Source: Prochilodus magdalenae (Eukaryota > Chordata > Actinopteri > Characiformes > Prochilodontidae). Taken from it: 64,000 bases of DNA. This document shows positions 27,730 to 53,232 of this stretch, one piece after another; position 1 is the stretch's first letter; the number at the start of each line of letters is the position of its first letter. Made by a program: the position numbers and the translations under genes. The notes beneath the pieces were generated by a model. It worked only from the letters and a program-made list of their open reading frames with translations. It ran no database searches and was not told where the DNA came from. The DNA lies in contig JAMWET010000582.1 in assembly GCA_024036415.1 (NCBI GenBank), positions 1 through 64,000 of the forward strand, read 5' to 3'.

Positions 27730-28262
27730 TTATTCTCTCACACACACTGATGAGTAATAATAAACCCAGAATCCAGCATAGAGCGGTTCAGTGAATGTGG
27801 TGTAGAAGGTGTGTAGGTGAGTCAGTGTCTGTGGATCAGAGGAGACTCTGTAGAAAGACAGAGTGCCGGCCGGACAGTCCACATACACTCCTACTCTCTT
27901 ACAGTCGGCGGGAGGAACAGAGACAGCAGTGCTGATATTATTGTGATAAACAGAGTAACTGCTATCAGAGCAGATCAGACTCCAGGACTTTACATTCCGT
28001 CCAAACCTGCAGTCATCACTGGCTCCTTTCCTGCTGATTGATTTATATGTTACTGCTATATGAACCTCTCTGCTCCACTCAGCCTCCCAGTAACAGCGTC
28101 CAGTCAGACTCTCTCTACTCAGAACCTGAGCATAGTAATCAAATCTCTCTGGATGATCAGGATACGGCTGATCCTCCCACACACGCTCCACCTTCCTGTT
28201 CCCGTCAGACAGAGAGAGAGAACTGTACGCTGTGTTGAGATCCAGAGTAACCTCACAGGAAT
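27730..28262 (-). CDS. B30.2 (PRY-SPRY) exon, C-terminus of the Ig-LRR receptor
   Basis: A 177-codon exon after acceptor ccttgtgtgcag, ending at TAA (27730-27732). The PRY part has CEVTLDLNTAYSSLSLSDGN, YPDHPERFDYYAQVLSRESL and GRCYWEAEW. The SPRY part has VTYKSISRKGASDDCRFG, KSWSLIC, GVYVDCPAGTLSFY and EPLYAGFWV. It is complete and of the type attached to fish NLRC3-like and TRIM proteins, where it is a ligand-binding module. All upstream exons of the minus-strand gene precede it in order. The exon starts in phase 1, while the LRR exon at 31192 ends in phase 2, so a small joining exon (usual in fish NLR genes) must lie between, and I could not find it. Alternatively this exon belongs to another gene, but none is visible. 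Confidence 0.85.
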
Positions 28263-28299
28263 CTGCACACAAGGAGAGAGTGAGAATGAGTGAGTGAGA

Positions 28300-28375
28300 G
28301 TATTATTATTATTAATAATTATTATTATTACCATTATCATTGTCATTATTATTATTGTTGTTGTTGTTGATGATG
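28300..28375 (+). repeat. ATT/GTT trinucleotide microsatellite
   Basis: A mixed TTA/TTG/TGA run in the intron before the B30.2 exon. Confidence 0.85.
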
Positions 28376-28789
28376 ATGAAGTGTGGTTCTGCTTCCGGTG
28401 TGAAATGTTCTGAAGATTTCAAACCCAAATAAAACAGATGTATTAAATAAAGAGTTTCTTTAAAGGTAAAATAATTGTGAGTATGAATTGAAAGCGTGTA
28501 CAGATTGTAGATCATAAACAGAAATATCTTCAGTTCTGTTATACTGTAATATTCAATGTGAGCTAGTTAAAAGTTCCAGACTGTACTAATAAAACACTGT
28601 AATATGGAATAATAAGGTGGAACAAGGAGAATAAAATAGAAGATGTAATGGGAGGTCATTAATCCATTCATTCAGTTTCAGTCTCTGTTTAAAAGAGAGT
28701 CGCTCAGTAAAGTTGGGCAGATTTTTGCGTTTCACTGAATACAGTAATGGAACCGTTTCTAAAGTGCGGGTACTGTTTAAAAACACAAG

Positions 28790-28925
28790 ATTCAGAGAGA
28801 TCGGAATCAAAATCAGAATCAGAATCAAGCTTCATTTACACATACAAGGATTTTGTCTTTGGTTACAGTAGCTCAAAGGGCACAGAGAGTAACAACATTA
28901 TACACACACACACACACACACACAA
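28790..28925 (-). repeat. Retroelement-tail-like repeat and CA run
   Basis: The phrase ttacacatacaaggattttg occurs in the 3' region of many fish LINE/SINE families (orientation minus). A CA run follows (28902-28924). No coding part is seen. Confidence 0.45.
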
Positions 28926-29259
28926 ACTGATAACCGGTCACTATGTTTTTGTAATATCATGAAAACCAGTAAGTTCACACATCTTTCCTTTTTTATTGTT
29001 AGATTAAAGTGTCTTTGTGTTAAAGAACCAATTATTTTGATCGTGGTTTGTATGGCTAATACTGAAAAAAAATTAAAATAAGTAGCAGGCACAAAGAACT
29101 TGGCATGTTGTGAACAGAGCTAAAAGCTCTATAAAAGAGTTTTATTTAACAAACTAGTAACAGAGCACAACAGCAAATAACAAGCACATATACAAACAAA
29201 AGTGCAATGCCAGGTACAATATAAGAGATAAGAAGGAATCAAAGCCAGAATTTTTGCAC

Positions 29260-30770
29260 AGTGGGGTTAAGGTTAGGGTCAAGTTCAGGTGTAGTATCAC
29301 TTTTGGTTAAAGGGATTATGGTGAGGGTGATGTTTAAGTATAGTATTTGGAATAACAAGTTAGGGTCAGGTTTAAGTGTAGTATTACTTTTAGCTAAAGG
29401 GGTTTAGGTCAGGGTGAAGTTTAAGTAAAGTATTTGGGATAATGAGGTTATAGTGACGTTAAGGTGTGAATTTTTTTTGGGTACTGTTTTGGCAGTAGGT
29501 GGCAAAGCAGCTTTTAGTCTTTATTAAGGCTAAGTATAGAACAATATTAATTTTAGCTGGTAGTCACTTGAACATGTAGTGCTAGTATTACATTGGGCTG
29601 ATACAGTTAAGGTTAGGGTGAGGTTTTTGTGTAGTATGAATTAAAAAACTGAAATCAAGGTTAAGTGTACGGGTAGTATTACTTTTGTATACTGACGTTA
29701 GGGTGAGGTCTAGGTATAGTATTACTTTTGGATACTGAGGTTAGGGTGAGGAATAGGTGTAGTATTAATTTTAAATACTGGGGTTAAAGTTAGGGGGAGG
29801 TTTAGTTAAAGTATTAGTTTTAATTGTGAGGTTAAGGTTAGGGTGAGGTTTAGGTGCAGTATTACTTTAGGATTCAGATGTTAAGATTAGGGTTTAGCTA
29901 TAGTATTATTTTTGGAGTATTATTTTTTGATTACTTTTGGATACTTGTGTTAAGGTGAGGATTAGGTTTAGTATTACTTTTGGATATTTACATTTACGGC
30001 ATTTAGCTGACGCTCTTATCCAGAGCGACTAACAAGAGTATTCATGTTACAGGTAGGCCAGTGTTTTGCCCAAGGGTTTTGCTGAACTACACCAACCCCA
30101 TATACTGAGGATACTGAGGTTAGGGTGAGGTTAAGCTGTATATTAGGTGTATGGCATAGTATTTTAAGGTTTAAGGTTAGGTGTAGGTGTATGATATAGT
30201 ATTATTTTTGGATACCAAAGTTAAGGTTAGGGTGGATACTAAACGCAAGGTTAGGGTTAGGGTTAGGTTTATGTGTAGTATTACTTTTGGATACTAAAGT
30301 TAAGGTTAGGGTGAGGTTTAGGTGTATGGTGTAGTATTACTTTTGGATTTTTAGGTTAGGGTAAGGTGTATGTGTAGTATTACTTCAGGATATTGAGGTT
30401 AAGGTGAGGGTAATGTTTAGGTGTAGTATTTTTGCATTCTGAGGTTAAGTTTAGGATAGAGTTTAGGTGTGGGATTACTTTTTGAATTTTAAGAGGTTAA
30501 GGTTGGCACATTTTGTGAGCAGCTGGTGCGGTATCTTTTAGTCTTTAAGGCTTAACAAGCATAGGACAATATGTATTATTTTTGGACACTGAGGTTAAAG
30601 TTAGGGTAAGGTTTAGATGTAGGTGTAGTATTTTTTTGCATACTGAGGTTAAGGTTAGGAAAAGGTTTAGGTGTAGGTGTACTATCAGTTAGATCCTAAA
30701 ATTAACGTTTAGGTGTAGTATTACTGTTAGATACAGAAGTAAATGTCACTGTTTGGTTTATATGTAGGTG
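29260..30770 (+). repeat. TTAGGG-rich degenerate minisatellite
   Basis: About 1.5 kb of degenerate copies of a roughly 50-bp unit built from gaggttagggtgaggtttag and gtgtagtattacttttgga. One point (about 30247-30275) has three direct telomere-type units (ttagggttagggttagg). Copies vary a lot, so the array is old. Confidence 0.8.
29988..30105 (+). repeat. Common teleost dispersed repeat
   Basis: The motif catttacggcatttagctga then cgctcttatccagagcga is found across fish genomes in short dispersed repeats. It interrupts the TTAGGG-rich array. Confidence 0.7.
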
Positions 30771-31191
30771 TGGTTCAGGTGTGTGTGTATATACACCAGG
30801 TATGCAGGATATTGAAAAATTCATTAATCTTCCAGATTTCAGTCTGTTTTACCTCAAACGGCTCCCCACCCAGTATATATACTTACATCTCTTTGGTTTG
30901 ATCGTAATCTTGCCCTCATGTTCCACTCTAAAGAGCAAACACAGAGTAGTGAGATATTTTCAGTGGAAAAAATATTTGTCTGAATCTATATATGTATTTT
31001 GTTTTCTATTTGTATTGTTTGATCTCATTATCTCTCTCTCACTCTCTCTTTCTCTCTGTCTGTTTCCTTATCTTTCTCTCTTTTACTCTCTCTTTCTGTC
31101 TGTTGCCCCCCCCAAGTCAGTCTCTTTTTATTCAGTCATTTTCCTTTAGTTTCTCACATATACAAACACCCCTGAACAGAGCTGTTCATAC

Positions 31192-31365
31192 CTGAGAGTG
31201 TTCAGTGAGCAGTGTGGATCCTCCTGTTTAGCATAGAGCTGCTTCAATCCCGACTCTCCTGGGTGATTGTAGGTCAGATCTAGTTCTTTCAGGTGTGCAG
31301 GGTTTAAACTCAGAGCTGAAGCCAAAGAAGAACAGCCTTTCTCTCTCACCATACATCCTGATAAC
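31192..31365 (-). CDS. LRR exon 6 (last) of the Ig-LRR receptor
   Basis: A 174-nt phase 2-2 exon (acceptor tttctgcag, donor ctcag|gtatg). It encodes LSGCMVREKGCSSLASALS, HLKELDLTYNHPGESGLK and EDPHCSLNTLR, the capping repeat found last in fish NLRC3-type LRR arrays, just before B30.2. It is open and well conserved with 20853-21026. If the donor is not used, the frame ends 13 codons later (YEQLCSGVFVYVRN stop), which would give a form without B30.2. Confidence 0.88.
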
Positions 31366-31829
31366 CTGCAGAAAGAGAGACAGAGTGAGACACATACTGT
31401 ATATATTGTATATATATGTATAGAGTATAATGTGTATATATATACGGTGTGTATATATTATTGTAATTTTGGTTAATTAGTTAATTATTACTAACAACTA
31501 ATAATAATACAATAATGACAGACTAATATAGAAAACACAGTTTACTAACATAGTAACTAACTTGTTGTGCTTTATGAGTGCTGAAATAAGCTGCAGCACC
31601 CTAAGGCCCAGGCTTGTCAGGGAAATAGCCAAAATAAAAAAGGTCGATTGATTTAACATTAATGTTAGTTGTAATTTTAATTTTTAAATAAATGTAGTTG
31701 TCTATAATACTGTATTAAAATCTGGTGTGACCAGTGGTAGGTTGTGTCTGTTCTGTTAATTTAATAGTAGGATGGGTGATTGATTTATTCTCTGAAAAGT
31801 GTTAGAAGTTGTAGTAAATATAAAATGGA

Positions 31830-32130
31830 TTTTTTTAGGTTGTAATATTATAACTAGCTAACTTAATGCCTTGTATATTGCTATGCAATTTTATTGCTAA
31901 GAATAGACAGCAGTGCCAATGAACAATGAACTTGTGCCTTGGATGTCCATGGATAAAACCATTCTGATCATGTCCCATTATATGTGGTAGAATGTTCTCC
32001 ACCATATAAGGAATGATTGTTTTATCCAGGGTTTGGTGCTTGTGATTGTGTGAGAGAATCTGGGGATTCTTTCCCATGATGCAAAGGTTTTGGACCATTT
32101 GGAATTTTTGCATGAGGCAACAGTGTTGTT
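31830..32130 (-). mobile_element. L1-type LINE RT remnant
   Basis: The minus strand encodes a short RT piece (VENILPHIMGHDQNGFIHG), like the L1 motif around PDQxGFIxGR, in broken frames. It lies in the intron between LRR exons 5 and 6. Confidence 0.5.
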
Positions 32131-32141
32131 GAGCTGTTTGA

Positions 32142-32612
32142 TTGACAGACACAGGTGATGGGGTACCATTCAGTAGAAAACAGAGCTATGAAAAACTGGT
32201 ACTGAGACGGTTGGTTTTGGTGTGGAAGGATTTCTACAATCGAGCCTTTGTGAACATCATGTATTCTCCAGACATTCATCACAAAACTCCTGCCTCAGGT
32301 GTTTTGAGTAAATTTTGGTACCGTTCAGTGACTGCAAAACATGGAAAAGAATGGAATACCATATTTCCTATGGCTGAAATTTTGATAAGAATGAGAACGA
32401 TGCAGAATGCACTCTCACAGAGACAAATTTTTACATCTCAGAAGGTCTTCACTTATCACAGAGTGCCTAAACATTTCTGGCCTAAGGTAATACGTCTGGA
32501 ATCTGATGATGTTGAGGAAAAAATGGAGAAGTCTGACAGTAAGGAAACTGATGAAGAAGAGCAGCAAGATGGTAAACTGCCATACCTATTTAGTATTCGG
32601 GATACTGTTTGA
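32142..32612 (+). CDS. Unidentified open reading frame (156 codons)
   Basis: An open frame starting MTDTGDGVPFSRKQSYEKL with a protein-like core (YNRAFVNIMYSPDIHHK; GVLSKFWYRSVTAKHGKEW; YHRVPKHFWPKVIRLES) and an acidic tail (ETDEEEQQDG). I do not recognise it. It is flanked by L1 pieces and lies about 2 kb from a Polinton-type capsid remnant, so it may be cargo of the same element. No promoter or intron can be assigned. The real start could be upstream. Confidence 0.4.
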   Translation: MTDTGDGVPFSRKQSYEKLVLRRLVLVWKDFYNRAFVNIMYSPDIHHKTPASGVLSKFWYRSVTAKHGKEWNTIFPMAEILIRMRTMQNALSQRQIFTSQKVFTYHRVPKHFWPKVIRLESDDVEEKMEKSDSKETDEEEQQDGKLPYLFSIRDTV

Positions 32613-32624
32613 CGTTGGTCAACC

Positions 32625-32850
32625 AAAGTCATAGATACAGAGGATGAAGAAAGGGACTGAATTTCTAGTTTAGCCCACAGCAAATCTGGGGAATGAAGCC
32701 AACACAAGACCTTTTGAATATGGGCAGCCTAGTAGTAAAATAGAAAATTGGGAAGGGCGAGCCCCCCATCAAATTTAAATCTCTGTAATAAAGATTTATT
32801 CATCAATAGATGAGCTGATCCAAAGTTTTAGTAGTATACAATAAAAAAAA
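32625..32850 (-). mobile_element. L1-type LINE C-terminal remnant
   Basis: The minus strand encodes KFDGGLALPNFLFYYWAAH and then LLWAKLEIQSLS, resembling the GGLGxPNFxxYYWA motif downstream of the RT domain in fish L1 ORF2. The fragment order relative to 31830-32130 is reversed, so the two are separate pieces or rearranged. Confidence 0.6.
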
Positions 32851-33015
32851 AAAACACGAATGAGGAAGATGAGTTTAACGAAGATAAAGAAGCAACGCGC
32901 AAGTGTGTAGCAGCAGGATCAGGACCACAAGTCTTTGACCTTGGCTGAAAAGGGCAGGGTTCACTTGCCGGTCAAAAAGTCAGAAGATAGCGGACAGCTG
33001 CCATGTTAGGCAAGC

Positions 33016-33560
33016 GTGATATGTGAGTGCGAGGCCCTGTCAGAATGTGAGAGTAATGATTCATCTTACTCAGACGTTCCATCCGTTGTGGATGAAGAGT
33101 CTTTGGCCATTCAGATAAAACTAATTGTAGAATGTATTTGGTCTAAAGCATTTATGCAGGCTATTGGAGAATGGGTGGAGCAGCTGTGCCCGGGATGTAA
33201 AATCAATCAGCCTTCTCAAAGGCAACACACATGTATTAAAGGTGTACCCATTCTGTTAGATAAAGTTTTAAAGCAGAAATGGCTCCATCTCCATCAGATG
33301 AACTGTGTCATTATTTTGGATTGAAAGAACAATTTGGTGATGGACATTTTGCAGAAGATGTGCAAGATGATGCAGGAAGTTTTGGAAGAATACGACCCAC
33401 TGTAAGAGTATATCACCAAACACCTGTCTAGTTTTTTGGCCCCCTTTCAGCACAAGAAGTCTTCAGAGCAGGAAGATTTTGCTATTGAAGATGCGGCAAC
33501 AGGCATCTTTCACATTCTGAATCGTACTGACGTGAGTGAAGTGTATTGTACAAAATACAT
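33016..33560 (+). pseudogene. Unidentified decayed gene with a Cys/His motif
   Basis: One frame stays protein-like across about 180 codons apart from two in-frame stops (near 33322 and 33406). It has an acidic/Ser start (CESNDSSYSDVPSVVDEES), a segment WVEQLCPGCKINQPSQRQHT whose C-x2-C...H-x-C spacing suggests metal binding, then MCKMMQEVLEEYDPL and YITKHLSSFLAPFQ, and ATGIFHILNRTDVSE. I recognise no family with confidence. Association with the nearby Polinton-type remnant is possible. Confidence 0.45.
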
Positions 33561-33605
33561 TGATATTTTAAACATACACATATGTTCTATTTAGTTTTTT
33601 AAGAT

Positions 33606-33800
33606 AAGTCATGTTGTCTTTTGTAGTTTTGTAGAAAACCTGTGTAACCTTTCTACCTTGCTTTTTATAAAGCAATGTAATCTATCTGTATTTAAAAGTC
33701 ATGTAAGCTCTTGTAGTTTTGTAGAAAACCTGTGTAACCATTCTACGTTGCTTTTTATAAAAAAAGTTTTGTAATATTTCTGTATTTAAAAGTCCTGGAA
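33606..33800 (+). repeat. Tandem duplication of a roughly 100-bp unit
   Basis: Two copies of ttgtagttttgtagaaaacc then tgtgtaacc, ttctac, ttgctttttataa, and ctgtatttaaaagtc, starting near 33610 and 33710. Confidence 0.75.
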
Positions 33801-34489
33801 TCATAACAAAACATGTGTATTCAATGTTTTGTCAGCATTAGATACTAACAACAAAAAACAATAAATGTCCTAAAACCTTTTTGTAAAAAAATAAAAAGCT
33901 GTCATGTTTGTTGTATATTTCATCATCATTTGTTTTTTCACCAAAACATACAGAGATGTTAAAATTATTGTAAATAATTTATTGACAAAATCACAATGGG
34001 ATACACACTTTTGCACACCATCTACAATATGACAGTAAAAGTTTATCCACAGCAAACTTTTCACATACTTTTTAACCATGCGATAGTTTTCTTGCAAATT
34101 TAACGTATAAGAATTTAACACTTCTGGAAAGGTAATTCCTATTAAATGTTGGTGTAAAAAAAACACAATGTTGACCGCAGGTATCTGATGTAAAGTCTTG
34201 TAATTTGTGTAGAGTTATATATAATGCATATATATAGTGCAAAAAGTTCAAAGTCAGTTCCCTAGGAATTAAAAAATTCTGCATCGCCTTGTGGGGAAAT
34301 TTAAACCACTAACCAGTGTTCACTGGCTGAGGTGTGTGTTTAGTATAAACCCAAGGGGTGATGAGTTTGAGAAATGTATTGCAGGCAGTAGGTCATAAGG
34401 AAGCACCCCTGCAAAACCTCTTGTACATCGCATGGCTTTAGCAATCTGGAGAGTGTCTATATTTTTTTAAAATAATCTATAAGCACTTC

Positions 34490-35640
34490 TCATTTACAGT
34501 TAATTTCTAAAATGTTGTGGAAAACAGTGAACACGATAACTTTTATGGTGTGTGCTACAGAGACTCTGAATCTGAGATCCAGTGTGACATTTCCAGACTG
34601 GATCAGAGATATGTAATCGCTGCTGTACTTATCCGGAGTCCAATTGAATGAGAATAAATTGTAACCTTCGTGGTATTTCTCACAATTGATAGCCAACGGT
34701 TGATCTCTTAAGCCCCTGTCTGTGACTTGAACGAGGCTGTAAAATGCTCTCAGGCAGCGCAGCCTGCTGAAATCAGGTCTGAAAAGTGTGGAGGGATAAG
34801 TGGGACAGAACCCACCATAAAATTTAATGATTCTACATCGTAATGGTGAAAATTAAAAGGGTTTTGTGTGTAAGCACCGCTAAAAGACTTGTTATGAACG
34901 TAAATGATAGCTTTGAATTTTGGAATCTGACCCAAGAAAAGATTATCTTGATTGGATACACGACTCCCCACCGGCACGCTAAACACTTTCAAGTTCACTC
35001 GCGCTCATCGGCGTCGAGGCATGCCCAAGCTTTACACCGGGTGTAAATTAATTTTCTTTACATAAAGCAATGTGGACAGAATGTGTGCTTTATAACCAGA
35101 GTTTGCATCCGAGAACACTAAAACAAATTCGACTTTATTGCAAACTAGTTTTATTCTCACACTGACAAATTTAAAACAAGTATTTCCTGAAACCCAAAAT
35201 CTAAGTGTAATAATAAATATATTATTTCTGGTCAGGTCACTTTTGTCCATTTGTCCCACCATATCTTTATAAAAAAAGACCTGCTGAAAATTGTGAATTC
35301 AACGTATCTTATGAAAAATTTAATAAACTTTCCAAGACATAAGTGGAACTGCTTTGAGAAATGAGTTTATCACCCATAGACAAATCCAATTGGCTAAAAA
35401 GAGTGGCTATGGGATAACTAGACCCACTCTGGCATCATCCACTAGATCCGTCCCATCTTCATCGGTAAGTTTACAGGTGAGGTACAAAGGTGAATGGTTC
35501 AAGTCCAGGTACGTGTCCCCAAACATGCTATATAAAACGTAGGATTGACACTGTTCTGGGTTAAGGGGGTTTAAAAAGATCCAGTTCAGACTTCATGCAT
35601 TCGGGCAATGTATAAGCGACATCTTTTTAAAAAGTATGTC
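34490..35640 (-). pseudogene. Polinton/Maverick (adintovirus-type) capsid gene remnant, F54H12.2-like
   Basis: Three minus-strand pieces, in order, resemble the F54H12.2-like structural protein of Polinton/Maverick elements and adintoviruses, generally taken as the minor capsid/penton. The N-terminal part (about 35640-35400) includes GDTYLDLNHSPLYLTCKL. A middle part is at 35032-35130. The C-terminal parts are 34750-34998 (DNLFLGQIPK; NPFNFHHYDVESL) and 34490-34696 (SGNVTLDLRFRVSV). Frameshifts and stops separate the pieces, so no functional product is expected. I see no polymerase B, integrase, protease or packaging ATPase nearby in the window, and no terminal repeats. It sits in the intron between LRR exons 5 and 6 of the receptor. 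Confidence 0.7.
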
Positions 35641-35978
35641 AGGGCTTGCTTTGACCTTTTTTTTCCGTTGTTGTTGTTACGTTTCTTCACAAGATTTAAA
35701 AGAGCTGTGTGTGCCAGCGTCTGTGGCAACCTTGTGTCTAGGATGACACTCATGCGTGAGACTTTGTTTTATGATATTTTGGTATTAGGTCTTAAATGTC
35801 TTAAACAGTTGTATTTTGTTCTTATAATTGTTCTTATCACTAATCTAAATGTCTATATCAACTACTTAATGAATCAGAAATGTATCAATGGAATTACCCC
35901 GATTCATTTAAAAAAGGCTTAAGCAAAGACCATTATGCTTTAACATCCCATTTCAAAATTAGCTGAAAGACAGCTGAC

Positions 35979-36152
35979 CTGAGTATCTCCAGTTTACAGT
36001 GTGAACTCTTCAGTCCAGCAGAGAGCTTCTCCACTCCTAAATCATAAAGCTCATTGTTACTGATGTCCAGCTCTTTTAGGGAGGTGGTTTCTGTTTGTAA
36101 AGCTGATCCCAGATGTTCACAAGACTTTTCCCCCAAATTACACAAAGATAGT
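35979..36152 (-). CDS. LRR exon 5 of the Ig-LRR receptor
   Basis: 174 nt, phase 2-2 (acceptor tgtttgcag, donor ctcag|gtcag). It encodes LSLCNLGEKSCEHLGSALQ, KELDISNNELYDLGVEKLSA and [10 protein letters not shown]. It is one of four nearly identical exon units spaced about 450 bp apart. Confidence 0.9.
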
Positions 36153-36431
36153 CTGCAAACAGAAAATATCTATTACAAATTTCATTACACGGTCAAAGCA
36201 GTATGTAATATTTAAACAACAGATTCAACTTTTAATTATTTTTCATTTTACCATAATGGTTACAGTAAGAGATATAATAGTATATCCAACAACTGAATTA
36301 GGGAAGCTTGGTTAACAACAGCGGAATTACCCTTGTATTCAAAATCACATAGTTGTTATGAGGATTAATCATAAATTATTAAGATTTAAAGTTCCATTCC
36401 AAAATTAACTGAGAACTGAGAGAAGGCTGAC

Positions 36432-36605
36432 CTGAGTATCTCCAGTTTACAGTGTGAACTCTTCAGTCCAGTAGAGAGCTTCTCTACTCCTGAATTATGA
36501 AGCTCATTGATACAGATGTCCAGCTCTTTTAGGGAAGTGGTTTCTGTTTGTAAAATTGATCCCAGATGTTCACAAGACTTTTTTCCAAATCTGCACTTAG
36601 ATAAT
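36432..36605 (-). CDS. LRR exon 4 of the Ig-LRR receptor
   Basis: 174 nt, phase 2-2, with no ATG but fully open: [49 protein letters not shown]. The change DISNN to DICIN alters the conserved Asn ladder, so this repeat may pack differently. Confidence 0.9.
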
Positions 36606-36881
36606 CTGCAGGAAGAGAGTAAGCATTAGAAATCTTATTGTAGAGTCATTTTAAGCAGTATGTCATTTTAAAATAACGGTTCCAACCTTTAATGATTTTT
36701 CACTTTACTGTAAAGATCACAGTAGGGGATAGAATAGTATATCCAACATCTGAATCAAATAAGCTTAGTAAAAAACAGTGGAATTCCCCTTTTATTCAAA
36801 ACCCCATAGTTGTTATGATGATTAAGCATAAATTATTCAGATTTAATGTTCCATTCCAAAATTAACTGAGAAAAAGCTGAC

Positions 36882-37055
36882 CCGAGTATCTCCAATTTAC
36901 AGTGTGAACTCTTCAGCCCAGCAGAGAGCTTCTCCACTCCTGAATCATGAAGCTCATTGTTACTGATGTCCAGCTCTTTTAGGGAGGTGGTTTCCATTTG
37001 TAAAACTGATCCCAGATGTTCACAAGACTTTTCTCCAAATGTGCACTTAGATAAT
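36882..37055 (-). CDS. LRR exon 3 of the Ig-LRR receptor
   Basis: 174 nt, phase 2-2: [49 protein letters not shown]. The last two exon bases are GG instead of AG, which changes the joined codon (Arg to Gly) but keeps the GT donor. Confidence 0.88.
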
Positions 37056-37323
37056 CTACACAAAGGCAGTAAGCATTAGAAATCTTATTGTAGTCATTTT
37101 AGGCAGTATGTAATAACAAAATAACAGCTACAACTTTTAACTATTTTTCACTGTACTGTAACTGTTTCAGTAAGAGATATAATAGTATATCCAACAACTG
37201 AATGAAGTAAAGCTTAGTACCAGTGGAATTCCTCTTTTATCCAAAATCACATAGTTATGAGGATTAAGCATAAATTATTAAGATTTAATGTTCTATTCCA
37301 AAATTAACAGAGAAAAAGCTGAC

Positions 37324-37497
37324 CTAAGTATCACCAGTTTACAGTGTGAACTCTTCAGTCCAGCCAAGAGCTTCTCCACTCCTGAATCATGAAGCTCATT
37401 GTTACTGATGTCCAGCTCTTTTAGGGAGGTGGTTTTTGCTTGTAAAACTGATCCCAGATGTTCACAAGACTTTTCTTCAAATGTACACTTAGATAAT
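37324..37497 (-). CDS. LRR exon 2 of the Ig-LRR receptor
   Basis: 174 nt, phase 2-2, open: LSKCTFEEKSCEHLGSVLQA, KELDISNNELHDSGVEKLLA, SSHCKLVILR, donor cttag|gtcag. First of the four near-identical units. Confidence 0.9.
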
Positions 37498-39387: not shown

Positions 39388-39465
39388 AAAACATAATGTC
39401 TGAAATTGTGCATATTAATATATATATATATATATTAATATGCACAATTTCAGACATTATGTTTT
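39388..39465. repeat. Perfect 78-bp palindrome
   Basis: The two 39-bp arms are exact reverse complements. The left arm starts aaaacataatgtctgaaatt and the centre is a TA run. It can fold into a hairpin without a loop. It lies just 5' of a GT run and a Tc1 element but does not match the Tc1 right terminus. Confidence 0.9.
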
Positions 39466-40545: not shown

Positions 40546-40610
40546 TAAATATATATATACATACTGCACAACACTTCTGTCGAACAACAGTAAAATTTTG
40601 GTATTCTGAC

Positions 40611-42054: not shown

Positions 42055-42220
42055 CAAGCTTTTCTGCAGTTTGTTATAGCCAGAATAAGTCTTCTATAAC
42101 CTTCCTCTGATGTGTTGTACCTTTTCAGATCCAACTCTTCACGCACATACTGTGATTTAACGCGCATGTAGGCCACAGTTGAGCACTGTGCTGGAGAGAG
42201 TTCTTTTTCTGAGATTTTAT
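42055..42220 (-). CDS. Juxtamembrane NLR-type linker exon of the Ig-LRR receptor
   Basis: 166 nt, phase 1 in and 2 out (acceptor ctgtacttccag, donor cttg|gtgag). It encodes DKISEKELSPAQCSTVAYMR, then EELDLKRYNTSEEGYRRL and NCRKA. In fish NLRC3-like proteins the segment LSPAQ...EELDLKKY...SEEG...RKA lies at the very end of the large NACHT exon, immediately before the LRRs. Here it is a free-standing exon with its own acceptor, at the same point in both gene copies, and it follows a TM exon in matching phase. It contains VAYMRV, a fit to the ITIM consensus (V/I-x-Y-x-x-L/V), about 20 residues after the membrane. Confidence 0.88.
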
Positions 42221-43561: not shown

Positions 43562-43651
43562 CTTTCCAGAGGTAAGCTGTAAAGGCCACAAATATAACAG
43601 CAAACACAGAAAAGCAGATGAGGGCAATCTTCCAGGAGTGAAAACCTGGCT
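43562..43651 (-). CDS. Transmembrane exon of the Ig-LRR receptor
   Basis: 90 nt, phase 1-1 (acceptor tttgtatttcag, donor aaag|gtaat). It encodes EPGFHSWK, then a hydrophobic helix of about 20 residues (IALICFSVFAVIFVAFTAYL) and WK. This is a typical type I single-pass segment between Ig domains and a basic cytoplasmic start. It joins in frame to the linker exon (K-D-K-I-S-E-K). No counterpart was found in the plus-strand copy. Confidence 0.88.
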
Positions 43652-43925
43652 CTGAAATACAAACCAAATAAAAATGTACAGCAAGTCAAACACCAAATGA
43701 CTTAATTTTCCCTCCTGTGACATATTAAATATAATTTCATAATTAAACAGGATATGTGACCGTGACACTGTCCTATGCAGTGTAATTTCACATTTTATAG
43801 TTAATGTGAGTTGAAATACTAAAAAGATACTAGATTGAGATACACTAAAGATTAATTAATACATCTGATGTAAAAACTAAATAACACATAATAAATAATG
43901 CTGTTTTGAAATTGTGTTCTCTTAC

Positions 43926-44282
43926 CTTTAACTTCAACATAAACAGTTACATCATCATGCCAGGACCTGTACCGAATTAAACATTTGAAAGCTCCCTCAT
44001 CAGAAGGCTGGACTGCTGAGAGTTTTAGTGAGGTGTTTCCTTTCTGCAGTTCTTCTTTAAATAGGGCTGTTCTTCCTCTGTAGGACTCCATCTGACCATT
44101 ATTTCTGTCTACATGATCTTCATAGAGATGCACTAGCTTTCTAGTTTTAGTGCTATCTAGTCTGATCCACTCCACCATCATATCCTCAGCACTGATGTTC
44201 AGCTGGAGAGAACAGGGCAGAACCAGATCTTCACCAGCTTCAACAGCAAGAGGAGCAGCTGTACCAACTACTTTTGAATGTA
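43926..44282 (-). CDS. Second IgV exon of the Ig-LRR receptor
   Basis: 357 nt, phase 1-1 (acceptor ctttttttccag, donor aaag|gtaag). It encodes VVGTAAPLAVEAGEDLVLPC, the core Trp in MMVEWIRLD, YRGRTALFKEELQKGNTSLK, and SDEGAFKCLIR with the second Cys. The usual Tyr before this Cys is Phe. It ends DDVTVYVEVK. This is the butyrophilin/MOG class of V domain, likely extracellular with the canonical disulfide. Sequons NIS and NTS are present. Confidence 0.9.
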
Positions 44283-44483
44283 CTGGAAAAAAAGAAAAAG
44301 TGTACAATGTATGTAAATAATATACTTTGCATATTCAGTTTATTTTCAAGATAACCAACTTACAGTGGACCACTCATCACCACTATTGCACACCATCTTA
44401 AAATATATGCTCCTAATTCTTTGCGAGTCTAATATCTGTCTGCTGTTTGTATCATATGGTCAGTTATCACGTCGTTTCGATAT

Positions 44484-44937
44484 GTTTCTGTCACGCCTGT
44501 GGGTCTGCCTGCCTCCGCTCCTCCGAACTCCAGTTCCCAGGGGGCAAGGTCCGATGACGTCACACCCACACTCACTCGTTCCCATTCGCCGACTTATTGA
44601 TTACGGCCAGCTGTCAGGGGAGTATAGAGGCCAGCACGGAACGAGCAGTCGGCGCGAAGCTTTGCCAATCTCATTTGCAAGCCTGCGCCCCACTAACCTG
44701 TTGTCTCTTTCCTCACAGTGACCGACTGCTTGTTCCCCGTGGCTTACTCCCCTGTCACCTCTGTTTCGGCTTCCTTGGTTTCCCCGATAATCTCTGGTTT
44801 TCGACCCCCTTTAGTCTGTCTCCTGAGCGTTTGTTGTTTCGCCAGACTCGGCGTGGTGTCCAATAAACTTTTCTATTACTGTGGCTCAGCGCGCGTCACG
44901 TCCATTCCTTTGCCGCCTGACAGTTTCCATATACAGG
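44484..44937 (+). mobile_element. Solo LTR, Gypsy-like, with 5-bp target duplication
   Basis: Runs from TGTCACG (44489) to CCTGACA (44932) and is flanked by GTTTC on both sides (44484-44488, 44933-44937). It has the same termini as the LTR at 717-1195 and a polyadenylation signal (caataaac). It is inserted in the intron between the two IgV exons. Open frames inside it are not genes. Confidence 0.87.
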
Positions 44938-45522
44938 ACAGCTATTTATTAACATAAATTCATTTGAAGCTAGTCCAGTTGCATAATTATTCTAGAAAAC
45001 ATTCTACAAAATGTGTTTTTGTAAATCAAGATGGAAATCTGTACAATTCATTCTTTTTTGAGATGGGATTAGTCTTGCAGAGGCACAAAAAATTGTTTAC
45101 CTGTTGTGTTATCTGGGCGAAGTTCTCAGATTAATTAAACAGACTGATACATGGATACCAGAATATGAGAGTACTATGTTGCTCCAGTTTTGGAAAGTTT
45201 GGAAAGTAAATTTTTAATTAGGACAGCTGTCATAGGGCAGTGTTAGAGTGTAAAGGTTGAATTTGCTCATGCATTTATTCCCAGTATTGTATTTTTCCTT
45301 TCAGTGAATTCTTTCTTCAGACAGGAGGTCAAAATTGGTTTTTAACCCTTTTCTGTCAAAATACTATAAAAACTTTTAACTCTGTTTGCCTTTCATGATA
45401 TTTTGTTGCATGACACTATTTTTTCTAATGTGAGACTTGATGAATGGATACTAAAGTTATTAAATTTATTTATTTAAATAATTTATTTTAAAAAAATAAT
45501 AAATTATCAGAATTAGCCTTAC

Positions 45523-45882
45523 CTTCAACTTGAAGAACACGGACAGTTATGTCGTCATACCAGGACGCTGATTTAACTAAACATTTGTAAGCTCCCTCAT
45601 CAGAAGTCTGGACCATTGTGAGTTTCAATGAGGTGTTGCCCTTCCACAGTTCTTCTTTAAAAAGAGCTGTTCTCCCTCTGTACGACTTAATCTGCTTGTC
45701 ATTTCGGGTTTCATAATCTTTATAGAGATGCACTAATCGATTTGTTTCACTCAGATCTGTTCTGACCCACTCCACTGTCATATCCACAGCACTGATGTTG
45801 GGTTGGAGAGAACAGGGCAGAACCAGACCTACACCAGCTTCAACAACAAGAGGAGTAGCTGCACCAACTACCTCAAACATCT
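45523..45882 (-). CDS. First IgV exon of the Ig-LRR receptor
   Basis: 360 nt, phase 1-1 (acceptor tttttattacag, donor gaag|gtaag). It encodes EMFEVVGAATPLVVEAGVGL, PCSLQPNISAVDMTVEWVR, YRGRTALFKEELWKGNTSLK and SDEGAYKCLVKS, then DDITVRVLQVEG. Both Cys, the core Trp and the D-x-G-x-Y-x-C motif are present, so a normal V fold is expected. It is more similar to the IgV of the plus-strand copy than to unrelated Ig families. Confidence 0.9.
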
Positions 45883-47137
45883 CTGTAATAAAAAGCATAC
45901 ATGACATAATATATACTAATAATAACATAATAAAATACTAATGTAAATACATGTTTATAACAGGATATCACATTAAAAAACAAAACTGTGCATTTACACA
46001 AAATTCTGATGGTTTTGGCCAGACAGAATCCAGATTTAACTCAGGACTCAGTATTCTGTCCTGGCGGTAGATGGAGATGCCAACCAATGTGATGATTATG
46101 TGTATTATCAAGCTTCTGTTTTTTTAAGGAAAAGGTTTGCATGGGATTATTAACTAAATCAAATTTCTGTTTAAGTAAATGCAACTGACAAATTCTAAGT
46201 CGTATTAATTAGTCCAATTTATTTAGAAGATGGACATAGAAGTATAGAATTGAAAACAATTGGTCAGTCAATGATCAGGTCTGCTGCAGAAATCAATCTG
46301 CTGACAGCATATAGTCCACTGATCAGAGATTCTAATGGTTAATCTATCAACGACCACTGCAATTGGCAGGAAATTCTACACAGTGTTCTGACTGCACGCA
46401 TCCACAGCAAATGTCTGCATACTGAGAAAGGTTTGTCGATCATAAATTAGGCTAGACAAAATGATTTCAGCAAGAGTTAGTTGGTGTAAAGAATGAAGTG
46501 TTGATCAGAAACAACTCTGTGTTTATTAGTTTGCTGCTGTGCTGTTTGTATGTTAAACATGCTTACGTTTATGTGTTCAGCGAGGTGTATTTCACTAACA
46601 CTGAAATGTAGTCACTCAGTCACTCACTAAATGCAGTAGTTTATTATTTTTCCATTTATATTTTTCTCCTGTAGACTGTATCAATTTGTCAAGGTAGCTT
46701 ATCGAGCCAGTTCCTTGCAACAGCCTCGTCCGCATGTGAGCACACAGATTAAGGAGTTGCTTTGACCATGTCATAAAACATCTGTCAGCCCACATATTGT
46801 TTATTGTACCTCCTACTCACAAGCCTTTAAGAGGTTGGACCTTGTCAGTCAATATTGTGGGATGCACTTGTGTAGATGGACTACTGACAGTAACTGGATG
46901 AATAAATATTGCTGAGATCTACTTTGACGTGAAAGACTTTGTCTCTGTTGATCATCAGTGTAAATAACAACAAAAATGTTAACCAGTGTGTTTCAACGTT
47001 CTAGGACAACAAAACATAAAACCATCCAAATGAGTAAAAACATTCATGAGCATTACAGCTAGCTTTATCACTTTATCACTAACTCTGTGTACAGTTTCAC
47101 CTGTGTCTCTCACTCTCACTGCATGTGGATCACGTAC
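45883..47137. other. Intron; no exon seen
   Basis: No recognised element or exon. Confidence 0.4.
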
Positions 47138-47197
47138 CTGATATGGTCTCCATAAAGCCCAGGAAGGTCAGAATCACCACACAGAGCACCTTCATTT
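47138..47197 (-). CDS. Signal-peptide exon and start of the Ig-LRR receptor
   Basis: An exon of 60 nt after acceptor acctgtttttcag. Two bases in lies ATG (47195-47193), followed by MKVLCVVILTFLGFMETIS and donor tcag|gtacg in phase 1, matching the IgV exon. The sequence has a basic n-region, a hydrophobic core and a small-residue end, a clear signal peptide. The start choice is firm because the acceptor lies directly before the ATG, so the 5' UTR is in one or more upstream exons. Confidence 0.88.
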
Positions 47198-47399
47198 CTG
47201 AAAAACAGGTAACATAGACTTCAGCTCATGTTTTTCATACGGATGACATTGTTCCAAAGATCAATGTCAGAACATTTCTCAACCAGAAGCACTGGAATAA
47301 CACTGAGGTTCAAGAGTTCGGCCCATAAGAAAGCCAGATATGACCCTCAGAGGACCATCAGGATGGCCAAAATAAACTACAGAGACATAATCTAACTAC

Positions 47400-48218
47400 C
47401 TTGGGTCTGATCTCTTTGTGCTATCACTACAAAGCTGACGGGGTCCACAATCGGGTGCTCAGAGCATGTGCTATCCAGCCGGCTGAGGTTTTCACTGACA
47501 TCTTTAACCTCTCCCTAAGACTGTCAGTGATTCCCACATGCTTCAAGAGAACCACAATTGTTCCGGTTCCCAATAAACCAGCCATCACATGCCTGGATGA
47601 CTATCGCCCTGTTGCGCTGACATCAACAGCTATGAAGTGCTTAGAGCGACTGGTCAAAACCCACATCTGTTCCTCACTTCCAGACACCATGGACCCTCAC
47701 CAATTTGCATACCGCTCCAACGGATCCAAAGATGACGCTATTGCACTGACAGTACTCGCTGCCCTCACACACTTGGACAGAAAGAACACATATGTGAGAA
47801 TGCTGTTCATAGATTACAGCTCAGCATTCAACACCATCATCCCGGCTAAACTCATCCCCAAGCTCACAGACTCAGGGTCTGAACTACCATCCGTGCAACT
47901 GGATTCTGGACTTCCTGACAGGTAGACCCCAGGTGACTCTGACTCTGAGCACAGGGGTTCCTCAAGGCTGTGTCCTCAGCCCCCTCTTGTATTCCCTGTT
48001 TACACATGACTGTGTAGTCAGACACACATCCAACAACGTCTTTAAGTTTGCTGATGACACCACCATCCTAGGCCTCATCACAGATGGAGACGAGACTGCC
48101 TACAAAGAACGAGGTCAGTGTCCTGTCAGAGTGGTGCTATCATAACAATCTCTGTCTTAATATCAGCAAAACTAAGAAGATTACCGAGGACTATAGGAAG
48201 CTGCAGAGGGGTGGTCAC
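47400..48218 (+). mobile_element. LINE (CR1/jockey-type) reverse-transcriptase fragment
   Basis: An RT domain read mostly in one frame with one break near 47925: [75 protein letters not shown] and the catalytic FADDTT. After SKTKKITEDYRKLQR it is cut by a Tc1 element. It probably belongs to the same family as the 3' ends at 11.6 and 54.3 kb. It lies in the first intron of the receptor gene, opposite strand. Confidence 0.85.
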
Positions 48219-48269: not shown

Positions 48270-49500
48270 GGTGTGAAAAAGTGTTCTTATTTATTTTGCA
48301 TGTTTGTCACTTTTAAATGTTTCAGAAAAAATGTACATATTAGTCAACACAACACAAGTAAACATAAAATGCAGTTTTAATTGATGGTTTTTATTATTAA
48401 GGGAGAAAAAAACCTACATGGCCCCATGTGAAAAAGTGTTTGCCCCCCAGTTAAAGCATAACTTAACTGTGGTTTATCACAGTTCAATTTCAGAGTTCAA
48501 TTTCCCTAGCCACACCCAGGCCTGATTACTGCCTCACCTGTCCTCAATCAAGAAATTATTTAAATAGGACCTGCCTGACAAAGTGAAGTAGACCAAAAGA
48601 TACTCAAAAGCTAGACGTCTTGCCAAGATCCAAACAATTGAGATTTTTCAGTCTGGAAAAGGTTATAAAGCCATTTCTAAAGTTTTGGGACTCCAGTGAA
48701 CCAAAGTGAGAGCTGTTATCCACAAATGTCAAAAACGTGGAACAATGGTGAACCTTCCCAGGAGTGGCCAGCCGAACAAAATTACCCCAAGAGCACAATG
48801 ACGACTCCACAAGAGGTCACAAAAGACCCCACAACAACATCCAAAAAACTGCAGGTCTCACTTGTCTCAGTGAAGGTCAGTGTTCATGACTCCACCATAA
48901 GAAAGATACTGGGTAAAAATGGCCTGCATGGCAGAGTGCCAAGACAAAAACCCCTGCTGAGCAAAAAGGACATTAAGGCTCATCTTAATTTTGCCAGAAA
49001 ACATCTTGATGATTCCCAGTACTTTTGGGAAAATACTCTGTGGACTGATGAGACAAAAGTTTTTGGAAGGTGTGTGTCCCATTACATCTGGCGTAACAGT
49101 AACACTGCCTTTCCGAAAAAGGCCACCATACCTACAGTAAACTATGGCGGTGTTAGTGTGATGGTCTGGGGCTGTTTTGCTGCTTCAGAACCTGGGAGAC
49201 TTGCTGTGATAAATGGATCCATGAATTCCACTGTCTACCAAAAGATCCTGAAGGAGAATGTCCGCTCACGCTGAACTGAACTTGAGTTGTGCAGCAAGAC
49301 AATGAGCATGTCCACCTCTGAATAGCTAAAGAAAAACAATGGGAAGACTTTGCAGTGGCCTTTTTTCTCCTTTAATAATAAAAACCTTTATTTAAAAACT
49401 GCATTTTGTGTTTACTTGTGCTGCCTTTGACTAATATTTAAATTTCTTTGTTGATCTGAAACATTTAAGAGTGACAAACATGCAAAAAAATAAGAAATCA
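48270..49500 (+). mobile_element. Tc1-like transposon with long inverted repeats, decayed
   Basis: Inverted repeats of roughly 130 bp or more: left part gcatgtttgtcacttttaaa and aagtaaacataaaatgcag; right part cattttgtgtttacttgtg and gagtgacaaacatgcaaa. The transposase starts near 48600 with an HTH in a broken frame. 48696-49274 keeps STIRKILGKNGLHGRVPRQK, the first catalytic Asp in ENTLWTDETKV, and VMVWGCFAASEPGRL, then ends prematurely. It is inserted into the LINE before it. Confidence 0.85.
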
Positions 49501-51115: not shown

Positions 51116-51119
51116 TGAA

Positions 51120-51690: not shown

Positions 51691-51739
51691 CTGAAATGTT
51701 TGTGTGTGTGTGTGTGTTATTGCATGTGTTATAGGCTTG

Positions 51740-52330
51740 TGTATGTAATGTCCTGTCTTGTCTTGCCCGTTTTTCTCGGTTTTCTCTGGTTTTCTGTTTC
51801 TGTCTTGTCCATATGTTTCTGTTTGTTTTGTTTTTTTGCTCATCCTGTCTACGCCCCCTTGTCAGGCCCCTCACCTGTCTCTTGTTTGTAACTCTGTCCC
51901 TTCTCAGGTGTTTCTCGTTAGCCCTTGTTGTTTTATTCTCTCGTTGTGCCCTTTGTTCTTGCTTGGTGTTTTGTCTCTATGCCAGTTGTTGTTACAGTTG
52001 TTACATAACACCAAGCCAACTATGGATGCAGCAAGTCGACTTGATACTGGCGATAGGGACATTGCTTATATGCAAAACCTGCTTGACACTCTTCAGGATG
52101 GAAGACCTCTGTTGCTTTCTACTCTCATGGCTGTTCTCTGTCTGATGGAGAATGGGAGGATGTCACTTTAAGGGCTTTCAGATGAAGGTGAACTTTATTT
52201 TCAGTATTTGACCTGCCCCATGACACCTGAAGTGGTAAAAGTACTCTTTTTAAAAACTTTGCTCAGGGGAAAAGCTGCACAATGGGGAGACATTGTTTTG
52301 AAAAGGACGTCGGTACGGCCCCGTCTGCAC
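51740..52330 (+). mobile_element. Retroelement leader and gag-like start, remnant
   Basis: A pyrimidine-rich leader (shared with about 41305-41600) is followed at 52024 by ATG and MDAASRLDTGDRDIAYMQNL, which resembles the start of gag proteins of fish Gypsy elements. Slightly further, in another frame, comes PEVVKVLFLKTLLRGKAAQW. The frames are broken and no pol follows. Confidence 0.45.
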
Positions 52331-52460
52331 CCGAGACTCCTGTCCTACCCACGAGTTCCCGAGACTCCTGTCCTGCCCGGGGTTCCCGAGACTCCTGTTC
52401 TGCCCGGGGTTCGCGAGGCTCATGTCCTGCCCGGGGTTCCCGAGACTCATGTCCTACCTG
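52318..52460 (+). repeat. Minisatellite with a 27-bp unit
   Basis: Five copies of cgagactcctgtcctgcccg followed by gggttcc. The open frames across it are artefacts of the repeat. Confidence 0.85.
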
Positions 52461-52734
52461 GGGGTCCAGTCTCTATTCCAGTTCCCAGTCCAGTCTCCTT
52501 TCCAGTTTCCTGTCTGGACTTACAATTCTTTTTCCATGTTTTCCTCAATGTGTAACCCATCTTCTCGTCCAGGTTTTGTGTTTGTCCCTGTGACTGTCTG
52601 TCTTTTTGCCTGTCACTGTTAATGTTCAAGCTCCAGTGTCTTCAGGGTTGTCTCTACCTGTTGCTGTCTCTGTTCCTATTCCTGTTACCATTTCTGTTCC
52701 TGTCTTCCTGTCATCATTACTCCAGTCTGTTCAA

Positions 52735-52905
52735 AGTCCAGTCGTTTGTCCAGTCTCCTGTCCTGTCGTTTGTCCCGTCTTCTGTCCGTTCCTCAGTCCA
52801 GTCTCCTGTCCTGTTGTTTGTCCAGTCTCCTGTCCTGTTGTTTGTCCCGTCTTCTGTCCGTTCCTCAGTCCATGCTCCTGTCCTGTTGTTTGTCCAGTCT
52901 CACAA
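52735..52905 (+). repeat. Minisatellite of cagtctcctgtcctgttgtt-type units
   Basis: Copies of ccagtctcctgtcctgt, tgtttgtcc and cgtcttctgtccgttcctca in a higher-order pattern. Confidence 0.85.
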
Positions 52906-53163
52906 GCTCACACAGTCTCAGCACTAAACCTTCAGAAGCCACACACAGCACAACACAGTGTGGAACATTCTCATAATGAAAAAAGAGCAACAACAGAACA
53001 CAACAAGGAAGTGCTGATACTATATTCCTATGAAGACATTTTACCAACTGATCACACCACCTCACCTCTCAGTTCAGCCTGAGAGTCTGTTTCACATTAC
53101 AGTCAAACACACAAGTAGTAAAATCAGTAATCATATCCACCATAAAGCTGAGAGCAAAGTTAC

Positions 53164-53232
53164 CTGTTTCTGAGCTCAGTCTTCAGAGTCTTTCAGGGTC
53201 TTCAGCTCCATTTTCATCAGGAGATCCAGTCC
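53164..53232 (-). other. Possible 5' UTR exon of the Ig-LRR receptor
   Basis: Minus strand: a stretch ending gctcagaaacag|gtaactt with a good donor. It contains a short upstream frame (MKMELKTLKDSED stop) that is not the receptor start. The donor position fits a non-coding first exon upstream of the signal-peptide exon. The 5' limit and promoter are not visible. Confidence 0.35.

Follow-up and report, generated by a model that had tools for sequence, protein, structure and literature searches.

NLRs are cytosolic sensors, and butyrophilins are surface reporters of internal state. Butyrophilins (BTN3A1, BTN2A1) and their kin (ERMAP, MOG, BTNL2) have a signal peptide, an IgV domain of butyrophilin/MOG type, one transmembrane helix (TM) and, later, a B30.2 domain. 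In BTN3A1 the IgV and B30.2 domains are joined by a juxtamembrane region; a role for the BTN3A juxtamembrane region is described in PMC10665462. The fish NLRC3-like or NLR-B30.2 family has the order FISNA-NACHT-LRR-B30.2 (PMC4852459). In the sea cucumber, AjNLRC4 is presented in PMC8699970 as a membrane receptor of the form Ig-Ig-TM-NACHT-TM.

The gene considered here, gene A, lies on the minus strand of the window, i.e., the whole 64-kb stretch of DNA analysed, from a South American fish. It shares the butyrophilin features listed above, but its second Ig domain is V-set, its B30.2 lies outside the butyrophilin branch, and an LRR solenoid occupies the place of the BTN3A1 juxtamembrane region. 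With the fish NLR-B30.2 proteins it shares, in the same protein order, the linker after the HD2 position, the LRRs, the connector, and the B30.2; compared at the protein level, however, gene A lacks FISNA, NACHT, winged helix, and HD2 and instead has a signal peptide, IgV domains, and a TM. Gene A and AjNLRC4 both join Ig domains and a TM to part of an NLR, but AjNLRC4 keeps NACHT without LRRs, whereas gene A keeps LRR-B30.2 without NACHT; the two would have arisen independently. Ribonuclease inhibitor and the NLRP LRR domains have the same solenoid fold but are soluble or NACHT-linked, rather than placed after a TM.

No description of an IgV-TM-linker-LRR-B30.2 receptor was found in the literature. 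The claim of an earlier sequence-only reading that no such receptor has been described thus met no contrary publication, although uncharacterised database models do exist; among their labels are 'ribonuclease inhibitor-like', 'butyrophilin-like protein 2', or 'NACHT, LRR and PYD domains-containing protein'. Gene A very probably encodes a real, conserved, single-gene membrane receptor and most likely belongs to a predicted type I membrane receptor family of Characiformes and Gymnotiformes.

Exon structure of gene A and its partial copy

Splicing of 13 exons with GT-AG borders and matching phases gave an open frame of 882 codons followed by TAA, with AG/GT at each internal exon border; read in its two alternative frames, this splice contained 56 and 79 stops. 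The exons are as follows:

47195-47138, minus strand: exon 1, ATG and signal peptide MKVLCVVILTFLGFMETIS (exon map; hydrophobic N-terminus)
45882-45523, minus strand: exon 2, IgV domain 1 (360 nt, phase 1-1; Pfam V-set)
44282-43926, minus strand: exon 3, IgV domain 2 (357 nt, phase 1-1; Pfam V-set)
43651-43562, minus strand: exon 4, transmembrane helix (90 nt, phase 1-1; hydropathy peak)
42220-42055, minus strand: exon 5, NLR-type linker, predicted to cap the LRR solenoid N-terminally (166 nt, phase 1-2; tree, predicted structure)
40784-40611, minus strand: exon 6, LRR1 (174 nt; exon map, Pfam LRR)
37497-37324, minus strand: exon 7, LRR2 (174 nt; exon map)
37055-36882, minus strand: exon 8, LRR3 (174 nt; exon map)
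36605-36432, minus strand: exon 9, LRR4 (174 nt; exon map)
36152-35979, minus strand: exon 10, LRR5 (174 nt; exon map)
31365-31192, minus strand: exon 11, LRR6, terminal type (174 nt; exon map)
30927-30887, minus strand: exon 12, connector VEHEGKITIKPKR (41 nt; restores phase into B30.2)
28262-27730, minus strand: exon 13, PRY-SPRY (B30.2) and stop TAA (exon map; Pfam PRY, SPRY)

All 12 exons named in the sequence-only reading were present and ended where it had placed them, and the GT-AG borders and matching phases that it described up to the last LRR were borne out by the splice check. Its list was incomplete, and the phase mismatch after LRR6 arose because the 41-nt connector exon (30927-30887), which brings the right phase into B30.2, had been overlooked. 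It had also extended the gene to 53232; with gene A exon peptides, and with selected ORFs compared with Pfam, no gene A coding exon was found between 47196 and 53232. A 5' UTR exon is possible there, because the ATG directly follows an acceptor-like site.

Pfam matches above the cut-offs in the gene A protein were V-set (two stretches), LRR, PRY, and SPRY; neither FISNA nor NACHT was matched in the protein, and the linker alone matched no Pfam family. The N-terminal IgV is of the butyrophilin/MOG type, and its structurally solved relatives are CD276, MOG, and butyrophilins. The two IgV domains are 68% identical over 113 residues, and Pfam assigned the second to V-set and not to a C type; the outer half of gene A is V-V where that of butyrophilins is V-C. 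Hydropathy indicated a single TM after the Ig part, EPGFHSWKIALICFSVFAVIFVAFTAYLWKD, between IgV2 and the linker, and the strongest 19-residue hydrophobic window began at residue 267, within the TM exon. Among LRR exons 2-5, dN/dS was 0.36-0.97, and LRR4/LRR5 were not unusual in the frame-blind control (358 of 2000 did as well), so little can be learned from these young repeats.

A second copy, said in the sequence-only reading to have the same order and exon sizes, lies on the plus strand (copy B):

16388..16740, plus strand: single IgV exon (353 nt, frameshifted)
17585..17750, plus strand: linker exon (166 nt, open)
19250..19365, plus strand: first LRR exon (58 nt short)
19475..19648, plus strand: LRR exon (174 nt)
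19767..19940, plus strand: LRR exon (174 nt)
20853..21026, plus strand: terminal-type LRR exon (174 nt)

The sizes agreed for the linker and three LRR exons. A full match to the order and exon sizes of gene A was ruled out by the frameshifted IgV, the short first LRR, and the missing parts: copy B (16388-21026, plus strand) yielded no signal peptide, second IgV, TM, connector, or B30.2. Copy B is a degraded, partial copy of the gene A design, and it supports shared ancestry of the exon order, not a second working gene.

Relatives in other fishes and the origin of the two halves

Protein searches with the junction, as the sequence-only reading had suggested, were performed twice and listed 129 proteins (P0001-P0129); one list was the best 120 of 699, and the candidates were limited to proteins within set lengths that had 5-residue words in common. 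An IgV and the linker were found together in 78 of the 129, from 10 species of Characiformes and Gymnotiformes, P. magdalenae included, and in 74 a TM lay between them. LRR motifs followed in 72 of these 74, and 30 reached B30.2 while 44 did not, shares that are biased because the searches favour long proteins. No NACHT motif occurred in the 78 proteins, as scored by sequence motifs. No catfish or Electrophorus protein was among the matches listed (129, with one list the best 120 of 699). The chimeras, all of them predicted proteins, had one or two IgV domains, and two models had three. The layout evident from their sequences is a signal peptide, a butyrophilin/MOG-like IgV, one TM, and then, within a few residues, an NLRC3-like LRR solenoid with its own N-terminal cap. 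The predicted chimeras end in the B30.2 of the NLR where the model is long enough, and they have no FISNA, NACHT, winged helix, or HD2.

Some models were shorter or differed in exon content. The hypothetical protein P0021 (NCBI, Prochilodus magdalenae) is a partial model of gene A that lacks IgV2, LRR3, the linker end, and B30.2. The TM was skipped in four Prochilodus models; P0134, P0137, P0152, and P0158 ended after the linker, and P0146 (Electrophorus, named isoform X3) and P0170 (Brachyhypopomus) had other short tails past the TM. Because some models skip the TM or stop after it or after the linker, the long form may not be the sole or main product of the gene family.

In NACHT NLRs the counterpart of the linker lies directly after NLRC4_HD2, and gene A carries NLR-type LRRs with this preceding post-HD2 segment. 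In a linker tree of 128 proteins and two window rows (one of the 129 was dropped for too short a segment), the chimera linkers formed one group across a supported branch from NACHT NLRs. A connector-like motif ahead of B30.2 was also present in the NACHT NLRs P0031 and P0033. In the B30.2 tree, 34 of 36 rows labelled butyrophilin (proteins from the relatives search without the linker motif) fell on one side, and the gene A B30.2 fell outside with support of 100. Inheritance of the B30.2 from butyrophilins was thereby ruled out, and the domain, behind its connector, belongs to the NLR side. The IgV tree (199 rows, 118 columns) was poorly resolved, with chimera and other IgVs intermixed.

Divergence was compared across 59 chimeras, the 74 with a TM minus identical or short ones. 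IgV and linker divergence were correlated; TM and LRR1 divergence showed no correlation once species was taken into account (525 of 2000 permutations were as high). Between species, the TM averaged an identity of 0.62, the last IgV 0.66, and the linker 0.70; the TM was no more conserved than the remainder of the chimera. The chimera IgV held strongly variable stretches; B30.2 variability was computed on 18 proteins. The earlier proposal that an IgV-TM half is joined to the LRR-B30.2 half of an NLR without NACHT is thus upheld by the open 13-exon frame, the 74 of 129 listed proteins, the IgV-linker correlation, and the linker and B30.2 trees.

An AlphaFold model was made of an Astyanax relative, with an alignment of 55 proteins hand-picked from the 129. 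It had a helix at 263-288, in the TM region, and a pTM of 0.52, a value at which the mutual arrangement of domains is not predicted. In the model the linker caps the LRR solenoid N-terminally, and the solenoid, from cap to end, resembles ribonuclease inhibitor and NLRP LRR domains, in a comparison whose rows span mainly model residues 286-689 and B30.2 and barely cover the Ig part. The top Foldseek match was full-length BTN3A1 (8zhr_F; E 4.7e-23), a gappy match with an rmsd of 45.

Alternative explanations and possible modes of action

The NCBI model of the gene A locus has a different exon content, as might be expected if gene predictors had strung together two adjacent loci, one coding for an IgV-TM protein and the other being the 3' portion of a disrupted NLR gene, with no joined mRNA. 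We consider this highly improbable. The IgV-TM-linker order recurs in 10 species, the chimera linkers are separated from those of NACHT NLRs by a supported branch, IgV and linker divergence are correlated, queries with the pre-linker (NACHT) parts of four NLRs detected no NACHT remnant in the 64-kb window, and the open linker frame has no ATG upstream of its exon. On these grounds chance adjacency or a gene-prediction artefact was rejected. A main product consisting of a short IgV-TM or IgV-TM-linker receptor, with the LRR-B30.2 exons rarely used, would be compatible with the structural claim and would suit both the truncated models and the stop met at once on reading past the linker donor in copies A and B. 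It is nevertheless unlikely, given the LRR motif in 72 and B30.2 in 30 of the 74 listed models (a proportion biased to long proteins), the open frames of all gene A exons, and the linkers and terminal LRRs of copies A and B, where the number of residues kept was reached in 47 and 23, respectively, of 2000 frame-blind controls.

For the predicted single-gene receptor, an inside-out mode, by analogy with BTN3A1, is the likeliest of those considered, and we propose it tentatively. The tail would be cytosolic, with a stiff connection to the TM, and the chimera would be unable to assemble an ATP-driven inflammasome wheel. The LRR-B30.2 tail would bind a cytosolic ligand or partner, and the clustering or reorientation that follows would be relayed across the short junction at the TM to the IgV face, where a receptor on another cell would read it. 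Signalling in the opposite direction, with IgV binding clustering the LRR-B30.2 tails to recruit cytosolic NLRs or TRIM-type partners, would accord with the strongly variable IgV stretches and with AjNLRC4, which, according to PMC8699970, attaches to microbes on the outside and exerts its effect via its inner part. We regard it as somewhat unlikely, because none of the Pfam matches in the tail is a death-fold, TIR, or enzyme domain, and the two ITIM-like strings (residues 304 and 776) fall within the linker and B30.2. A protein that has lost NACHT but kept the sensor half would also fit a membrane-tethered decoy or regulator that shares ligand with full-length NLRC3-like NLRs through LRR-B30.2 and has no NACHT oligomerisation; this is improbable, as it leaves the retained, variable IgV face unexplained. 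Other mechanisms take up the rest of the probability.

Meaning for the receptor family

The chimeras could, in our tentative view, be a separate class of vertebrate immune receptor, in which the sensor half of an NLR was relocated to the plasma membrane and coupled to a variable IgV ectodomain. Such a class would have had a single origin before the Characiformes/Gymnotiformes split, would have many genes per species, and would report the state of a cytosolic ligand at the surface, or surface contact inward, without a NACHT motor. The family is testable because its predicted members include proteins of Colossoma, Astyanax, and Pygocentrus, which are fishes kept or farmed. If a conserved family does join the NLR sensor half physically to a butyrophilin-like surface half, the LRR-B30.2 part would be able to work without the NACHT motor, and such proteins would allow one to ask, in a natural setting, whether transmembrane signalling by B30.2 holds more generally than in the gamma-delta T-cell biology of mammals.

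Structure and coding integrity of gene A and copy B

Splicing of the 13 exons of gene A (minus strand, 27730-47195), for which boundaries, lengths and phases were computed, gave a single frame of 882 codons plus a stop; the remaining two frames contained 56 and 79 stops. All internal exon borders were AG and GT, bearing out the sequence-only reading's claim of GT-AG borders and of matching phases up to the last LRR. The exons it had named are there, but it had overlooked a 41-nt connector, which sets the phase right from the last LRR into B30.2. A connector-like motif also precedes B30.2 in P0031 and P0033, ordinary NLRs of these fishes.

Exons of gene A
Minus strand, 58 nt: signal peptide
Minus strand, 360 and 357 nt: two IgV exons
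Minus strand, 90 nt, phase 1-1: TM
Minus strand, 166 nt: linker
Minus strand, 174 nt each: six LRR exons
Minus strand, 41 nt: connector
Minus strand, 533 nt: B30.2

Pfam matches above cut-offs in the protein were V-set (two stretches), LRR, PRY and SPRY; the linker had no Pfam match. Among the best 60 of 128 matches to solved structures, the outer part was nearest to CD276, MOG and butyrophilins. A hypothetical Prochilodus magdalenae protein, P0021 (NFI96_001961), holds the full, unaltered peptides of the signal peptide, IgV1, TM, LRR1, LRR2, LRR4, LRR5, LRR6 and connector exons of gene A and the first part of its linker, without its IgV2, LRR3, linker end and B30.2. As P0021 illustrates, database models may contain errors.

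The LRR1-LRR2 intron of gene A contains a Tc1-type transposase (39556-40499, plus strand) with Sleeping Beauty HTH, Tc3 HTH and DDE matches over two overlapping ORFs. The intron before B30.2 (29300-30750, minus strand) is, as judged by eye, packed with degenerate CCTAACCTTAACC-like repeats. The following were also observed in the window.

12821-13387, minus: transposase-like piece
15114-15470, minus: transposase-like piece
48681-49274, plus: transposase-like piece
25874-26588, minus: RVT_1 reverse-transcriptase piece
47344-47925, plus: RVT_1 piece
55877-56116, plus: RVT_1 piece
54704-55282, minus: PF09004 match
53544-54426: long low-complexity stretch, several frames open, with Ser, Thr or Leu runs

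One RVT_1 piece lies directly upstream of the gene A signal-peptide exon.

Copy B was said to have the order and exon sizes of gene A. The plus strand does retain IgV, linker, three LRRs and a terminal LRR in this order, but the sizes agree only in part: the IgV exon measures 353 nt and has a shifted frame, and 58 nt are missing from the first LRR exon. No signal peptide, second IgV, TM, connector or B30.2 belonging to this copy was found. Between the two linkers dN/dS was 0.26, and the residue retention of the copy B linker, free of stops, was equalled by 47 of 2000 frame-blind controls. In the linker tree copy B lies closest to P0019 and P0017, both one-IgV members. Copy B supports an inherited IgV-linker-LRR order and not a second working receptor.

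Relatives in other fishes

Two junction searches were pooled, one with gene A residues 240-360 (IgV2 end, TM, linker and LRR1 start; 33 proteins) and one with the matching part of a gymnotiform relative (best 120 of 699 proteins). Among the 129 distinct proteins listed, 78 had IgV and linker together, and 74 of these had a segment of at least 25 residues of the type GKGFHAWKIAIICISVFAI...AYILKD between them; these are counts of protein models, several being isoforms of one gene, and not of genes. The other four, all Prochilodus models, lacked the segment. The 78 came from Prochilodus (18), Colossoma (17), Brachyhypopomus (11), Hoplias (8), Pygocentrus (7), Salminus (5), Serrasalmus (4), Acnodon (3), Metynnis (3) and Astyanax (2); Prochilodus belongs to the order Characiformes and Brachyhypopomus is a gymnotiform. 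The 74 had one IgV in 40 cases, two in 32 and three in 2. An LRR motif followed the linker in 72, the other two (P0046 and P0061) being LRR-like when judged by eye, and B30.2 was present in 30. One Acnodon model, P0003, has two linker segments, which suggests a tandem or read-through of two units. A NACHT motif was found in 41 of the 129 and neither NACHT motif nor IgV in 10; among the matches listed, no protein had both, and none of the 43 taken as cypriniform had IgV.

When just the outer half served as query, a further search gave 396 relatives, of which 120 were taken, 115 of them new. Among these 115, 16 fitted a TM pattern, two judged false; the linker followed in 12 of the remaining 14, and P0146 (Electrophorus) and P0170 (Brachyhypopomus) had other short tails. 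Four models (P0134, P0137, P0152 and P0158) stop directly after the linker. Both copies have a phase-2 donor, G|GTGAG, at the end of the linker exon (42054-42051, minus; 17751-17754, plus), so that read-through meets a stop immediately, and these models could represent a short membrane isoform. The four TM-less Prochilodus models mentioned above are P0024, P0030, P0084 and P0087. Because the gene A TM exon is 90 nt in phase 1-1, skipping it would leave the frame intact; the product, if real, would be a non-membrane form.

Origin of the two halves

A tree built on the linker and LRR1 had 130 rows and just 112 columns, a small number for that many rows. In it, every one of the 80 Ig-bearing rows, with the two copies from the window among them, and 4 rows bearing neither mark were separated by a branch of SH-aLRT 97 from the complete set of 40 NACHT rows and 6 rows without either mark. 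The characiform/gymnotiform NLRs P0031-P0033 lay on the NACHT side. This is as expected from one fusion followed by duplication, which the tree, with its few columns, supports but does not prove.

A butyrophilin origin of the inner half was ruled out by the B30.2 tree (101 rows), in which 34 of 36 butyrophilin-labelled rows lay on one side of a support-100 branch, with no chimeras and no NLRs. The two outliers, P0173 and P0201, resemble chimera models that have been cut short; a tree with all 36 forced together was not rejected (p-AU 0.48). The separation therefore fits an NLR as the source from which the inner half was taken as a block. NLRs of these fishes have a linker that starts directly after HD2 (P0031: HD2 470-602, linker motif 618; P0033: HD2 537-693, linker motif 709). 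The pre-linker parts of P0031, P0032, P0033 and zebrafish P0118 had no match in the 64-kb window at E up to 1, in agreement with the claim that NACHT is absent. P0032 (Brachyhypopomus) and P0090 and P0117 (Labeo) carry PF00097, which we take to be the RING domain, along with FISNA and NACHT; by their Pfam accessions they are another NLR fusion in these fishes.

The IgV tree did not resolve its branching. Divergence matrices of 59 distinct chimeras were compared with 2000 within-species permutations. The last IgV and linker correlated at 0.48, a value reached by 0 of 2000; permutations as high numbered 0 for IgV-TM, 13 for linker-LRR1, 17 for TM-linker, 29 for IgV-LRR1 and 525 for TM-LRR1. The TM-LRR1 result argues against a close linkage between these short stretches; all other pairs fit one gene.

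No description of the IgV-TM-linker-LRR-B30.2 architecture was found in the titles and opening abstract lines of the literature outside bioRxiv and most subscription journals, two of the searches covering 10 of 242 and 15 of 24 papers; within that scope the claim that no receptor of this form has been described is not contradicted. Howe et al. 2016 reported NLR-B30.2 fusion and exon shuffling in zebrafish (PMC4852459), and the accessible text contains neither "Ig domain" nor "butyrophilin". The sea cucumber AjNLRC4 authors were aware of no prior protein with both Ig and NACHT (PMC8699970). In the accessible portions, a 2026 butyrophilin phylogenomics paper (PMC12841164) lacks the words leucine, LRR and NLR, a 2025 fish NLR review (PMC12436146) uses transmembrane and immunoglobulin once each, neither on such a fusion, and a 2024 zebrafish NLR paper (PMC11192531) has none of six terms looked for.

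Variability and proposed mode of action

At the level of sequence, the order of the coding parts and their integrity, the recurrence in related fishes, the NLR-type inner half and the absence of NACHT were demonstrated. The last IgV varies most in three stretches, 42-45, 54-60 and 99-108, where smoothed entropy is 1.5-2.2 and exceeds 2 at positions 45, 102 and 105; on a general reading of IgV domains, these would be binding-face loops (C-C' turn, CDR2-like and CDR3-like). Mean between-species identity was 0.66 for the last IgV, 0.70 for linker, 0.63 for LRR1, 0.75 for the last LRR and 0.62 for B30.2 (18 proteins); at 0.62, the TM is therefore not specially conserved.

Because it has a signal peptide and a single TM, the chimera is predicted to have type I topology. 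The LRR-B30.2 tail would then lie in the cytosol, coupled to the TM by a very short junction. To our knowledge, BTN3A1 is the only worked IgV protein in which a cytosolic B30.2 senses inside and alters the IgV outside. There, the ligand sensed by B30.2 changes what the IgV shows (PMC10665462; PMC10533412). Three modes were weighed with the finding that Pfam detects no signalling domain in the tail. That the chimera is an outside-in scaffolding receptor we consider rather unlikely, and that it regulates NLRs improbable. Our tentative preference is for the inside-out mode: as in BTN3A1, the tail may sense a ligand inside the cell and thereby alter the IgV display outside.
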